Source of the DNA: Terriglobus albidus
Lineage (GTDB): Bacteria; Acidobacteriota; Terriglobia; Terriglobales; Acidobacteriaceae
Assembly (NCBI RefSeq): GCF_025685425.1
Contig: NZ_JAGTAS010000058.1
Coordinates: 558,001 to 622,000 of the forward strand
Direction of reading: 5' to 3'
Length of the DNA: 64,000 bases
The position numbers and the translations under genes are program-made. Under the pieces are notes generated by a model. The model searched no databases. It worked only from the letters and a program-made list of their open reading frames with translations, and was not told the DNA's origin. Shown here piece by piece: positions 17,655 to 61,512 of the stretch (position 1 is its first letter; each line of letters opens with the position of its first letter).

Positions 17655-17732
17655 AAATCCATCGATCAAAAGTTTTCCGTGTGCTTTTCCGAGGACGAGG
17701 GATTGTGCCCTGAGAACAACTCCAAGGCACCA

Positions 17733-17757
17733 TTCAACTATTCAACAATTCAACTCA
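17733..17757. repeat. ATTCAAC tandem motif, family D copy 1
   Basis: Three ATTCAAC/ATTCAACT-type units in a row in the queA-polA spacer. The same motif, in direct or inverted form, occurs around 20550-20641 and 40793-40826. Confidence 0.7.
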
Positions 17758-20607: not shown

Positions 20608-20642
20608 TTATTCAATCATTCAATTTTTCAATCATTCAATTA

Positions 20643-25243: not shown

Positions 25244-25690
25244 CAGTTGCTGGTTGCTGGTTCCTGGTTGCTAGTTGGGCCCGTGCCGTATGGCTTGGTG
25301 ACACACTCAGATCGTTTTTCCTAGGGCGTATCGACAACTTCAGTTGATCTGACAGAGGATGACCTGAAACTGGTGGGAGCAGCGGGGTCCCCATCCAGCC
25401 TTGCTGGATGGGGTGTTCAGCGGGCTTCAGCCCGCTGATACAGGCGTAAAAAATAGAGGGGCTTTCAGCCCTGGGCCGCCTCTGTACGCGAGGAAAAAGC
25501 CCAGGGCTAAAGCCCATTTGATGTTGAGCCGATACACCGTGGGCTGAAAGCCCACGGCTCCCACCGAATCGAGCTTCGCTCGAACATCCCGACCAACGCG
25601 ATGCGATGGATGGGCACCAGAGTATCGGTTATCGGTTATCTGGAATTTGTCGATACACCCTAGCAACTAGGAACCAGCAACCAGCAACTG
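25244..25690. repeat. Composite nested palindromic element
   Basis: About 447 bp filling the whole spacer between recG and the response regulator. The outer arms 25244-25274 and 25661-25690 are inverted copies of a CAGTTGCTGGTTGCTGG-type sequence. The inner arms CTAGGGCGTATCGACAA (25321-25337) and TTGTCGATACACCCTAG (25647-25663) form a second inverted pair with one mismatch. Inside are smaller palindromes: CCCCATCCAGC/GCTGGATGGGG, AGCGGGCTTCAGCCCGCT, GGGCTTTAGCCC-type and GTGGGCTGAAAGCCCAC. No coding frame is supported. Confidence 0.8.
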
Positions 25691-39655: not shown

Positions 39656-40789
39656 CTACTGCTCCGCCTGGCGCATCATCCTGGCGATGAAGTCCACCAG
39701 CCGCCACTCATCTCCTGCGCCTGGCGATTTCCCCATCTCGACATGCGAGATCAACGGACTCACCAGAGCGCCCTCCAACACCTGAGGACGCAGTCCCTGC
39801 GCCAGCCACAGCGTCTCCGCCGACGGAATCACATTGTCAGCCTCGCCATGCAACAGAAAGACGGGCACGCGTACGGCCTGCAGATTGCGATCCGGCGAGA
39901 CCGCGTCCATCTCCCGAGCATGTTTCGTCTCGTTTGCCGCAAGCAGGGTGACTGTCCGCGCATCAGCCGTCTTCAGCAGTTGTGTTGCGATCCTGCGTTG
40001 CGCGGGTGTCAGCGTCTGCAGCGCCTTCTGCTCCCCTGCACTGTCTTCATACAGGTGTTCTTTCAGAACCGAACTCAACGCAAGCCGGTCTGCCGTTGGG
40101 ACGAAGTCCTCCATATGCTCGTACTCCATCACCAGCGGCCCATATTCGTGCGCGGCCAGGATCTGGACCGATCCGTCAGGGCGAAGATCCTGCCCTGTAC
40201 GGTAGTACCGCGCCACCCGCTGCATATTGGCCTGCGATCCCACGGCGAAGACCATCTTCATCTCTGCCGCATACGCAGGCTGCTCCGCCGCCAGCAACGC
40301 AAGTCCACCCGAGAAGCTCAGTCCCAGCACACTGACCTTGTCCCCGGTCTGTTGCGCAAACCACCGCGCACTCTCACCGATCGCGGAAACACTCTCCGGC
40401 CCGATGCGATAGTCCGCAATCGCCGGAAGCTCCGGAGTCAGCACCTGCAGCCCACAGCTCGCCATCGCCGAAGCGAAGAGCTCCAGCCGGGGCTCATTCA
40501 TGCCAAGATGGTGGACGCCGTGCACAATCACCATGCCGGGCGCGTGGCTTACCCCTGCAGGCGAATACAGCCGCCCACGCAACGCGCCACTCGCCGTAGG
40601 AATAGCGACATCCTGCGTGAGAACGTTCGAAGCAGTCACCGCGCGTACCGGAAGTGGAATCGGCTCATGGCTGAGCGTCTTCAACACCGCCACCGCCTGC
40701 AAATGAGCTCTCACCCAGTGCCAGCTCGCAAGCAGCACCACAACCACAAGAGCCAGCGCTCCAAGGGAGTACCGCGACGATTTCGTCAT
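39656..40789 (-). CDS. Membrane-anchored alpha/beta hydrolase
   Basis: 377 aa from the ATG at 40789 (MTKSSRYSLGALALVVVVLLASW); an ATG at 40801 falls inside an ATTCAAC repeat. One N-terminal membrane span (about residues 8-27) is followed by an alpha/beta hydrolase domain. The nucleophile elbow is GLSFSGG (about residues 198-204), the acid likely D in LLHGEADNVIP, and the histidine in ISHVEMG. PGMVIVHGVHHLGMNEPR carries the oxyanion region. Related to dienelactone hydrolase/dipeptidyl-peptidase-like enzymes; substrate unknown. Confidence 0.8.
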   Translation of the reverse strand: MTKSSRYSLGALALVVVVLLASWHWVRAHLQAVAVLKTLSHEPIPLPVRAVTASNVLTQDVAIPTASGALRGRLYSPAGVSHAPGMVIVHGVHHLGMNEPRLELFASAMASCGLQVLTPELPAIADYRIGPESVSAIGESARWFAQQTGDKVSVLGLSFSGGLALLAAEQPAYAAEMKMVFAVGSQANMQRVARYYRTGQDLRPDGSVQILAAHEYGPLVMEYEHMEDFVPTADRLALSSVLKEHLYEDSAGEQKALQTLTPAQRRIATQLLKTADARTVTLLAANETKHAREMDAVSPDRNLQAVRVPVFLLHGEADNVIPSAETLWLAQGLRPQVLEGALVSPLISHVEMGKSPGAGDEWRLVDFIARMMRQAEQ

Positions 40790-40792
40790 GCA

Positions 40793-40826
40793 ACCATTCA
40801 ACTATTCAACGATTCAACCATTCAAC
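40793..40826. repeat. ATTCAAC tandem motif, family D copy 3
   Basis: Four ATTCAAC units separated by short linkers (cattcaactattcaacgatt pattern). It fills the gap between the MFS stop codon and the hydrolase start. Confidence 0.75.
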
Positions 40827-44770: not shown

Positions 44771-44899
44771 TGGGCAGAGAAGCAGATTTCTTTGCTCCCT
44801 CCGGTCGCTACGAAATGACAAACAAAAAGGCGGTCGTGCACAGCGCGATACCCCACTCTTCGCGATAAACCGCGAAGAGTGGGGTATCGGGAGTGTTCA
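44771..44899. repeat. Family E repeat (half) with a perfect 18-bp hairpin
   Basis: AGAGAAGCAGATTTC and CGCTACGAAATGACAAA mark a half copy of the family E element. Next to it, GATACCCCACTCTTCGCG (44847-44864) and its exact inverse (44871-44888) form a perfect 18-bp stem with a 6-nt loop, 35 bp beyond the aroDE stop codon. No T-run follows, so terminator function is uncertain. A degenerate version of the same hairpin lies inside the element at 6988-7163. Confidence 0.85.
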
Positions 44900-44922: not shown

Positions 44923-46863
44923 CTATTTCTTTTTCGCGGCTTTTGTTGGAGCTTTCGCTACAGCCTTCTTCGCGCTCTTCGATGCAGCTTTTGCAGGCGC
45001 CGGCTTAGTTACTGCTTTCTTCACAGGAGCTTTCGCAACGACCTTCGCGGGCGTTTTCGCAGCAGGCTTTGTCGGCACTGTCTTCACCGCACTCTTCTTG
45101 ACCGCCATCGGAGCCTTCTTCTCAGGAGCCTTTTCTTTGACCGGCGCAGCTGTCGCCACGGGTTTCTTGATGACGGGAGCCGTCACCGAAGCTTTGACCG
45201 GCGGCGCCTTCGCCGGTTCCGGCTTATGTTCCGGCTTATGCTCCGCTTTCACCACTGCAGGCTTCGGCGCTTCCACATGTTTCGCCTCGTCCTTCGTAAC
45301 AGCCGACGCCTGAGCCTCTGCTTGCAGCTGCTTCAGGGCATGCACCACAACACGCAACATCTCTTCCTCCGGAGCCGGCTTGCCTGTCCAGATCTCGAAC
45401 TGCCGTGCGCCCTGGTGAACGAACATCTCCACACCCGTGATGACCGGAATACCTTTCTCCCGCGCCATACGCAGGAAAGGTGTCTCGACCGGGTTGTAGA
45501 CCAGGTCAAAGACCAGATCCGCATGCATCTCGTTGGGCTCGAGGATATGGGTCAGCTTGTTGCCCTTCATCCCCGCGGGAGTGGAATTGATGATCAGATC
45601 GAAGTGCGTCTTACCGATCAGCTCGCGTTTGATGGTCTTCGCTCCGGCCTGCTTGGCCAGCTTCTGGGCTGTCTCCACCGTGCGGTTGTAGATGGTGACA
45701 TCCGCACCCTTCTCCTTCAGGCCGAAGACTGCGGCACGTGAAGCCCCACCGGCGCCCAGCACCAGCACTTTGAGCCCGCGGATGGACCGGCGACGCTCAA
45801 TAGGGCCGACGATACCGCCGACATCCGTATTGAAGCCATAGAGCTTTCCATCCTGGGCACGCACGATGGTATTCACCGCACCAATCTTGGCCGAGAGCGG
45901 ATCGGTCCGCTCCAGGTGTTCCAGGATCTCCTGCTTCAACGGCATCGTTACTGAGAGCCCGTGAATCGGGACCGCCTGCACGACCTTCAACAGATCGGTG
46001 AGCTTGGACGTCTGCAGCGCCAGGTAGACCGCGTTGACCGTTTCTCGGCGGAAGGCGGTATTCAGCATCAGCGGCGAGAGTGATGACCGCACCGGATTTC
46101 CGGCGACACCGTAGATCTTGGTTCCTGCGGCAATGTGGTCGATCCGGTAATTCTCCACCAGGGCGCGCGCAGGAATCTGACCGGGAGCAGTCGCGTCTTC
46201 TACACTCGAGGCGGCGAAGGTAAACGCTGATCCGGCACGTACACCGAGCACGCGGGAGATGACACCGTACTCTCCCATCGAGATGCCGATGACATTTCCT
46301 GCCTCACCGTACTTCTCGAGAAAGGCAAAGAGCGTCAGGTTATCCGCGAGCGAACGTGCCGTCGGCACAACCTTGATAAAATCCGGCTGGAACTTCTGGA
46401 TCCGTTCATAGACAGCATCCAGGTCACGGGTCGCTTCAAAGTCGTGATAGCTGATGATGATCGCCGCACCCGCGGCCCGCAGCTTGTCCAGGTCGGCATG
46501 CTTCATCGCCTCAGCCGACTCGATCTCAAGATCGATTAACTGGCTTCCGGCGGCCGCTGCCTTCGCCAGGATCTCCGCCTCGTCCGAGAGACTTCCTGTA
46601 AATCCGCCGCCATTCGGTTTCCGGCGGCAGGTGGTAATCGCCGTCACCAGCGGATTTGCTTCCAGAAATTCCTTCAGGCGCGGCAGTGCAGCCGCCGGAT
46701 TCGGCAGTGAATCCAGCCGGAACTCCAGAAACATATGCTCCGGAGCCGCAGCTTCAGCCTTTTGAAAAAGCTCGGCCGGGCTTGCACCCTGCAGGGCAAC
46801 GCAGACACGGCCAAGACGCGAACGCAGCGACTGCAGGGCGAGGTTCGGTGAGGAAGAAGTCAT
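44923..46863 (-). CDS. aroDE: 3-dehydroquinate dehydratase/shikimate dehydrogenase fusion with histone H1-like tail
   Basis: 646 aa from the ATG at 46863 (MTSSSPNLALQSLRSRLGRV); the frame continues upstream into a family A repeat. Residues about 15-230 are type I dehydroquinate dehydratase (FLEFRLDSLPNP, IISYHDFEAT with the catalytic His, FIKVVPTARS with the Schiff-base Lys). Residues about 235-513 are shikimate dehydrogenase (VYGVAGNPVRSSLSPLMLN, SVTMPLKQEI, GAVNTIVR, GFNTDVGG, LGAGGASRAAVFGL). These are shikimate pathway steps 3 and 4. Residues 514-646 are an Ala/Lys/Pro-rich tail ending KAPTKAAKKK, like histone H1 or AlgP tails; this part is unusual and may bind nucleic acid or polyanions. 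Confidence 0.95.
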   Translation of the reverse strand: MTSSSPNLALQSLRSRLGRVCVALQGASPAELFQKAEAAAPEHMFLEFRLDSLPNPAAALPRLKEFLEANPLVTAITTCRRKPNGGGFTGSLSDEAEILAKAAAAGSQLIDLEIESAEAMKHADLDKLRAAGAAIIISYHDFEATRDLDAVYERIQKFQPDFIKVVPTARSLADNLTLFAFLEKYGEAGNVIGISMGEYGVISRVLGVRAGSAFTFAASSVEDATAPGQIPARALVENYRIDHIAAGTKIYGVAGNPVRSSLSPLMLNTAFRRETVNAVYLALQTSKLTDLLKVVQAVPIHGLSVTMPLKQEILEHLERTDPLSAKIGAVNTIVRAQDGKLYGFNTDVGGIVGPIERRRSIRGLKVLVLGAGGASRAAVFGLKEKGADVTIYNRTVETAQKLAKQAGAKTIKRELIGKTHFDLIINSTPAGMKGNKLTHILEPNEMHADLVFDLVYNPVETPFLRMAREKGIPVITGVEMFVHQGARQFEIWTGKPAPEEEMLRVVVHALKQLQAEAQASAVTKDEAKHVEAPKPAVVKAEHKPEHKPEPAKAPPVKASVTAPVIKKPVATAAPVKEKAPEKKAPMAVKKSAVKTVPTKPAAKTPAKVVAKAPVKKAVTKPAPAKAASKSAKKAVAKAPTKAAKKK

Positions 46864-46983
46864 TTTTCTAATCGCGCGTATAGTATCGTCGCTGGGCTTT
46901 GGATGCAAGCCACTGATGCACAGACTCTTATTCCGCCCTTCCACAAACTCCAACCGCTCCGGATTTCCGCATAAAATGCGCTT

Positions 46984-47096
46984 AGAGCATTTTCCCTGTT
47001 GCTTGGTATTCCGGAAGGGCTTTGAAGCGGCGTTTTCGTTGCGGAAAACGCCCATAGATGCGAAAGCCCTACTCTCCACCTACAGGGAAATACTCC
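46984..47096 (+). repeat. Dispersed inverted repeat, family A copy 6
   Basis: 113 bp, left end TAGAGCATTTTCCCTG, stem GGCGTTTTCG/CGGAAAACGCC, right end CTACAGGGAAATACTCC (degenerate). It lies between the divergent aroDE and sigma-54 activator genes and creates false upstream starts for both. Confidence 0.88.
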
Positions 47097-58693: not shown

Positions 58694-59074
58694 CATTTGT
58701 CTTTGTAAGCGCTGAAGGCGCGTTCTATACCAGCCTGGGGCAACGCCCCAGGATCTTCGCTTAAAGGGCTGAAGGCCCGCTCTCTAAGCGGATCGGTTAT
58801 CGATTCTCCAAACCTATGGAGCGGGCCTTCAGCCCTTATCTTTCTCTTTGGCTCCGTAACCTGGGGCGTTGCCCCAGGCTGGTATAGAACGCACCTTTGG
58901 TGCTCTTTTGCCGTTTGCTATGTGGAGTGCCTCACCGTGGATAAGAAGCAGAACCAAGTTCGCCGGGGGCTCGACTATCCCACTCACGCTTCGCGTGAAT
59001 GGGGCACCCAGTGTATGAGTTGCCGTACATTTCGGACCTCTAGCAACTAGCAACTAGAAACCAGCAACTGTTTA
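58694..59074. repeat. Composite nested palindromic element between glpD and glpF
   Basis: 381 bp, no gene. A perfect 33-bp inverted repeat (58720-58752 and 58860-58892) has arms that are each palindromic themselves (CCTGGGGC/GCCCCAGG). Inside is another pair, GGGCTGAAGGCCCGCTC and its inverse near 58766 and 58819. TAGCAACTAGCAACTAGAAA and CCAGCAACTG near 59041 resemble the arms of the element at 25244-25690. Confidence 0.85.
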
Positions 59075-61399: not shown

Positions 61400-61512
61400 T
61401 TTGTTTGTCATTTCGTAGCAAAGCGGAGAAATCTGCTTGTTAAGCAAGATTCGGAGCCATGGGTAGAGAAGCAGATTTCTCCGCTCCCTCCGGTCGCTAC
61501 GAAATGACAAAG
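61400..61512. repeat. Family E inverted repeat, copy 3
   Basis: TTTGTCATTTCGTAGC (about 61407) and GCTACGAAATGACAAA (about 61494) are perfect inverses; the inner arms GCGGAGAAATCTGCTT and AAGCAGATTTCTCCGC also pair. This makes a cruciform of about 110 bp in the glpK-dxs spacer. Confidence 0.85.

Follow-up and report, generated by a model that had tools for sequence, protein, structure and literature searches.

Why would an enzyme of the shikimate pathway end in a tail that resembles that of histone H1? The question is raised by aroDE (44923..46863, minus strand), a gene in the 64,000-nucleotide stretch of Terriglobus albidus DNA analysed here (the window), whose sequence indicates a bifunctional 3-dehydroquinate dehydratase / shikimate dehydrogenase of 646 aa (plus the stop codon, 44925..44923) that carries such a tail. 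A preliminary description of the window had placed a tail at 44923-45330 on an AroD-AroE fusion and regarded it as no part of the catalytic portion. We confirm both points: the catalytic core ends at residue 511, and the tail, of 135 aa, begins after it.

The aroDE gene and its catalytic core

The catalytic core (residues 1-511; 45331..46863, minus strand) comprises DHquinase_I, Shikimate_dh_N, Shikimate_DH, and SDH_C; the Pfam models PF01487, PF08501, PF01488, and PF18317 all score above cut-off, placing both enzyme domains in one chain. Among NCBIfam models, TIGR00507 (aroE) is likewise above cut-off, TIGR01093 (aroD) is just below it (131.5 vs 139.3), and the narrow AroDE equivalog NF006802 scores far below. 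By sequence, the closest protein of solved structure is Arabidopsis DHQ-SDH (PDB 2gpt), with both domains matched in an alignment that stops at residue 502 of the window AroDE; this enzyme and tail-less bacterial AroDE proteins have the same two-domain order and catalytic residues as ours, but no Lys/Ala/Pro tail. H140, K164, K310, and D347 are invariant among relatives and identical at the aligned 2gpt positions; we take them to be the His and Schiff-base Lys of DHQase I and the Lys and Asp of SDH. AlphaFold2 returns a confident core whose last helix extends to residue 526. Judged by these models and residues, the AroDE catalytic core is intact.

The minus-strand frame 47079..44923 is unbroken throughout, and its longest ORF begins 72 codons too far upstream; the true start is the ATG at 46863. 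The extra 72 codons are not AroDE sequence but an interspersed repeat followed by a conserved promoter-like block, TTGCAT-17-TACTAT (approximately 46875..46903, minus strand), the DNA of which is nearly invariant among the five genomes compared. Ending ∼12 bases before the ATG, this block would be the aroDE promoter, with a very short leader; it is missing from the output of a consensus promoter scan. The short interspersed repeat itself (about 46975-47076, minus strand) has over 50 other translated matches across this genome and those of three close relatives, most copies being interrupted by stops, and was not seen in the remaining genomes of the genus. A 35-bp sequence (TTCGTAGCGACCGGAGGGAGC...), which may belong to that repeat family too, has two copies in the window, at 44780-44814 and 61469-61503 (minus strand); its 18-bp core has 22 copies in this genome, 14-21 in three close relatives, and 0-1 in four others of the genus (at most 2 mismatches). 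Soon after the aroDE stop lies a perfect 18-bp hairpin (44847-44892) with no T-run, whose folding is much stronger than that of shuffled sequences (z -6.5); it is probably a transcript end. The window also holds several short tandem arrays with units of 7-8 bp (ATTCAAC/ATTCAATC, GTTGCTG, and similar) at 20610-20641, 40787-40826, 17732-17755, 25246-25277, and 59040-59069.

Composition and conservation of the tail

The C-terminal extension (residues 512-646; 44926..45330, minus strand) is rich in K, A, P, and V and devoid of Arg (A35 K33 P19 V17 E8 T8 S5 H3, R0), bearing out the histone H1/AlgP-like composition attributed to it earlier. Its net charge at pH 7 is ∼+24, compared to +4.5 for the core, and is unevenly spread, +4 in the first half of the tail and +20 in the second. 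Residues 512-526 prolong the last core helix in the AlphaFold2 model, and residues 523-646 have pLDDT values below 50, about 30; the tail is predicted to be intrinsically disordered. We divide the disordered part into a proposed spacer of mixed charge (residues 527-560, with KPEHKPEP and similar; 45184..45285, minus strand) and a proposed binding part, strongly basic and ending in AKKK (residues 561-646; 44926..45183, minus strand), the boundary at residue 560 being our own choice. Neither Pfam nor NCBIfam has a match to the tail, and a genome search with the tail alone as query returned one weak match. A 40-aa window equally rich in K, A, and P was found in only 3 of 13,540 ORFs of at least 60 aa (1.66 Mb of the same genome, six frames), which argues that the composition is not due to chance.

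Being terminal, dominated by K, A, and P, richer in Lys than in Arg, and predicted disordered, the tail falls in the histone H1-like composition class. Its closest parallels are AlgP and PhaF of Pseudomonas, whose histone H1-like KPAA-repeat C-terminal domains likewise form a long disordered Lys/Ala/Pro C-terminus with Lys over Arg and an H1-tail-like composition (PMC9239181). Those proteins have tandem KPAA repeats, however, whereas the AroDE tail has one KPAA in 135 residues; the AroDE host is a catalytic biosynthetic enzyme that lacks the AlgP-type helical N-terminal domain, and DNA binding by its tail is only putative. No AlgP/PhaF family match, to the tail or to an N-terminal domain, was found in Pfam or NCBIfam, the rest of the protein being AroDE. 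Lysine-rich C-terminal repeats are also described for Streptomyces topoisomerase I and Mycobacterium smegmatis Ku, in work cited in PMC6821194; the C-termini of these proteins are lysine-rich as in AroDE, but their cores act on DNA and that of AroDE on small molecules.

The tail is common to four close genomes, in frame, which rules out a frameshift, assembly, or gene-joining artefact and upholds the earlier statement that the frame is continuous. Across these four genomes dN/dS is 0.15-0.23 for the tail and 0.02-0.06 for the core; stop-codon readthrough into the spacer is unlikely given these values and the tail composition. All 32 gap-free Lys columns of the tail are invariant, compared to 52 of the 97 others (p 9e-8, a guide rather than an exact probability because the columns share one history). 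At the codon level, 10 of the Lys codons show third-base differences, with no first- or second-base change in any, while among the other 97 tail codons the first base varies in 27 and the second in 25. By this codon evidence, purifying selection maintains the tail lysines among close species. No significantly stronger conservation of Lys columns than of the others was found in seven more diverged groups; over these longer times, as far as a less certain alignment can indicate, it is composition and not position that is kept.

The tail DNA contains no exact repeat of at least 14 bases, Tandem Repeats Finder reports in it only 30 bp of a 12-bp unit, and synonymous codons are mixed (e.g. Lys AAG 20, AAA 13). 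Recent slippage as the origin of this tail is thus ruled out by the lack of repeats, although some relatives do show them. The preliminary description had held that absence of the tail from close relatives, with a frameshift or expansion signature, would speak against it; the relatives are tailed, and neither a frameshift nor a slippage signature is present. Its suggestion of a repeat-expanded linker fares poorly, as the tail lies at the terminus and its DNA is without repeat. In none of the homologues inspected does a domain follow the tail, which also rules out a linker to a lost domain.

Tails across the family and on other proteins

Searching 150 genomes of the family gave an AroDE match in 146, and the genus gave one in 18 of 19. 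After 80 named loci had been added, tail lengths were taken from 184 AroDE loci in the family, a few of which share a genome; the sample was partly picked for likely tails, so that the following are counts and not frequencies: tail length runs from 0 to 232 aa, with 45 loci at 40 aa or more and 25 at 100 aa or more. Within the genus, long tails occur in eight genomes; ten others (L036-L045) have tails of 0-1 aa, with core identity of 42-53%. The genus, on this sequence evidence, contains two AroDE lineages, through transfer or because it is a broad genus.

On a quick tree of 167 cores, long tails (threshold 40 aa) and short ones are separated by 11 changes, gains and losses pooled, 8 of which are forced by well supported branches. 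We conclude from this tree that long AroDE tails have been gained or lost repeatedly in the family. The tail appears dispensable for catalysis, since relatives with an intact core are tail-less, and any benefit that it brings would be conditional, since such relatives are many. The long tails nonetheless follow a shared design: each of the 38 distinct ones carries more positive charge in its second half, and their K/(K+R) is 0.88, vs 0.43 in cores. In most other relatives, AroDE ends in a short basic stretch.

AroDE is not alone in its genome in having a tail of this kind. Similar tails are carried by a CCA/poly(A)-polymerase-type nucleotidyltransferase, by S20, L22, L29, and RsfS, and by two further proteins, one small and basic, the other acidic and then Lys/Ala; the Lys/Ala stretch of an endonuclease III is N-terminal, an RNase R-like protein has a short basic end, and Lys-rich ends are found on a receiver-domain regulator, a phospholipase D-like protein, a lysozyme, and a LysM protein. 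These names were assigned by reading sequences rather than by family search, and the tails were counted in 27% of the genome and by a Lys-pair pattern search of the whole genome. Outside the window, a 251-aa frame of the same genome (L314:1320-2075, plus strand), whose first half is acidic and whose second is a long Lys/Ala stretch, resembles a small histone-like protein. No second tailed shikimate enzyme was recognised among matches in 1.66 Mb or by the whole-genome Lys-pair pattern search, a pattern that overlooks tails with few KK pairs, AroDE's own included.

Three of these tails were followed through 30 genomes of the family. That of the CCA enzyme is 119-294 aa long in 29 of the 29 orthologues found (L325-L353), that of RsfS 62-142 aa in 28 of 29, with one frame cut short (L383-L411), and that of L22 18-61 aa in 28 of the 28 found (L355-L382); all three tails are present even where AroDE is tail-less, which rules out a genome-wide tendency as the sole cause of the AroDE tail. 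In composition, position, and basic end they match the AroDE tail of the same genomes, but almost every relative tested has them, on RNA and ribosome proteins, whereas the AroDE tail is sporadic and on a metabolic enzyme. There is no meaningful DNA similarity between them and the AroDE tail, and copying of the tail from another gene is ruled out, the DNA matches being only 14-18 bp. As far as these sequences go, Lys/Ala/Pro tails are a standing habit of the family on RNA and ribosome proteins, in which AroDE, a metabolic enzyme, shares sporadically.

What the tail may do

We lean toward the view, without great assurance, that the tail is a polycationic appendage which evolved repeatedly and which anchors AroDE to a polyanion, be it RNA/ribosome, nucleoid, or polyphosphate, as its composition and company suggest. 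A disordered, lysine-only polycation attached to an otherwise ordinary AroDE enzyme would, by analogy, do what such tails do for histone H1, for AlgP/PhaF, and for lysine-tailed enzymes of RNA and DNA. Its first part, of mixed charge, would serve as a flexible spacer and the basic remainder as the binding part, which would hold a polyanion with no preference for sequence and thereby concentrate AroDE locally. Lys-rich low-complexity stretches have been linked to nucleic acid binding in prokaryotes (PMC6821194). RNA or ribosomes would be the likeliest partner because of the RNA and ribosome proteins that bear like tails; nucleoid DNA is a candidate because of the H1/AlgP precedent (PMC9239181), and polyphosphate because of the Lys-over-Arg rule of YihI (PMC12345225) together with an encoded polyphosphate kinase. 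Sequence cannot discriminate among the three. The tether to nucleic acid or polyphosphate put forward in the preliminary description is therefore plausible, with circumstantial support from the similar tails on RNA and ribosome proteins; the cell-surface tether that it also offered finds no support. Against any tether stand the like tails on proteins with no evident polyanion partner (the receiver-domain regulator, phospholipase D-like protein, and lysozyme) and the Lys columns of the more diverged groups, no better kept than their neighbours to a significant degree.

Those same observations lend something to a different account, in which the charged disordered end is an entropic bristle that, without needing any specific partner, maintains AroDE solubility or protects the enzyme from proteolysis. 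Such a role would suit the disorder and charge, the loss of positional conservation over longer times while composition is kept, and the presence of like tails on functionally unrelated proteins. We nevertheless think it unlikely: it leaves unexplained why lysine is used without arginine or acidic residues, why the charge climbs toward the terminus in each of the 38 long tails, and why like tails gather on RNA and ribosome proteins.

A little less probable still is polyphosphate as the true partner, the lysine tail docking AroDE to this polymer under starvation. Lys-rich regions of YihI and RNase R are described as docking to polyphosphate, and Lys-to-Arg substitution abolished the binding of YihI (PMC12345225), in keeping with a tail that has lysine and no arginine; AlgP, with its KPAA tail, associates with polyphosphate granules (PMC9239181). 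The genome, moreover, has a polyphosphate kinase gene. Yet the tail reaches at most 50% D/E/S/K in any 20 residues, short of the PASK motif, a mostly D/E/S/K stretch with a threshold of about 75% in 20 residues. The Lys-rich tails of histone H1, for their part, bind DNA, and the company on ribosomal proteins points to RNA as well.

Functionless, near-neutral lengthening of the family's short basic end by replication slippage and drift would fit the commonness of such ends (K/R within the last three residues in 120 of 130 distinct AroDE ends of at least 8 aa), the wide spread of tail lengths, and the tail-DNA repeats that exceed synonymous shuffles in relatives L003, L022, L081, and L142, but we consider it quite improbable for a tail that, with its close relatives, has no repeats of at least 14 bases, mixed synonymous codons, dN/dS well below 1, and invariant lysines.

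In a limited literature search, we found no report of a Lys-rich tail on a shikimate enzyme or shikimate dehydrogenase. H1-like tails, and Lys-rich stretches in DNA-binding and ribosomal proteins, are already known (PMC6821194), and most lysine-rich tails on record belong to DNA- or RNA-handling proteins; what would be new is an H1-like tail on a shikimate enzyme. The family-wide tails on the CCA enzyme, L22, and RsfS may merit study in themselves. We give only a small chance to the proposal that, in this family, the evolution of a lysine tail has repeatedly brought a shikimate-pathway enzyme to ribosomes/RNA, the nucleoid, or polyphosphate; if true, the supply of aromatic precursors would be spatially linked either with the translation machinery or with a starvation polymer. 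The family offers a natural series of tails, from 0 to 232 aa on one metabolic enzyme and with lysines under selection, in which one can ask whether, and where, cationic disordered tails place enzymes in the bacterial cell.
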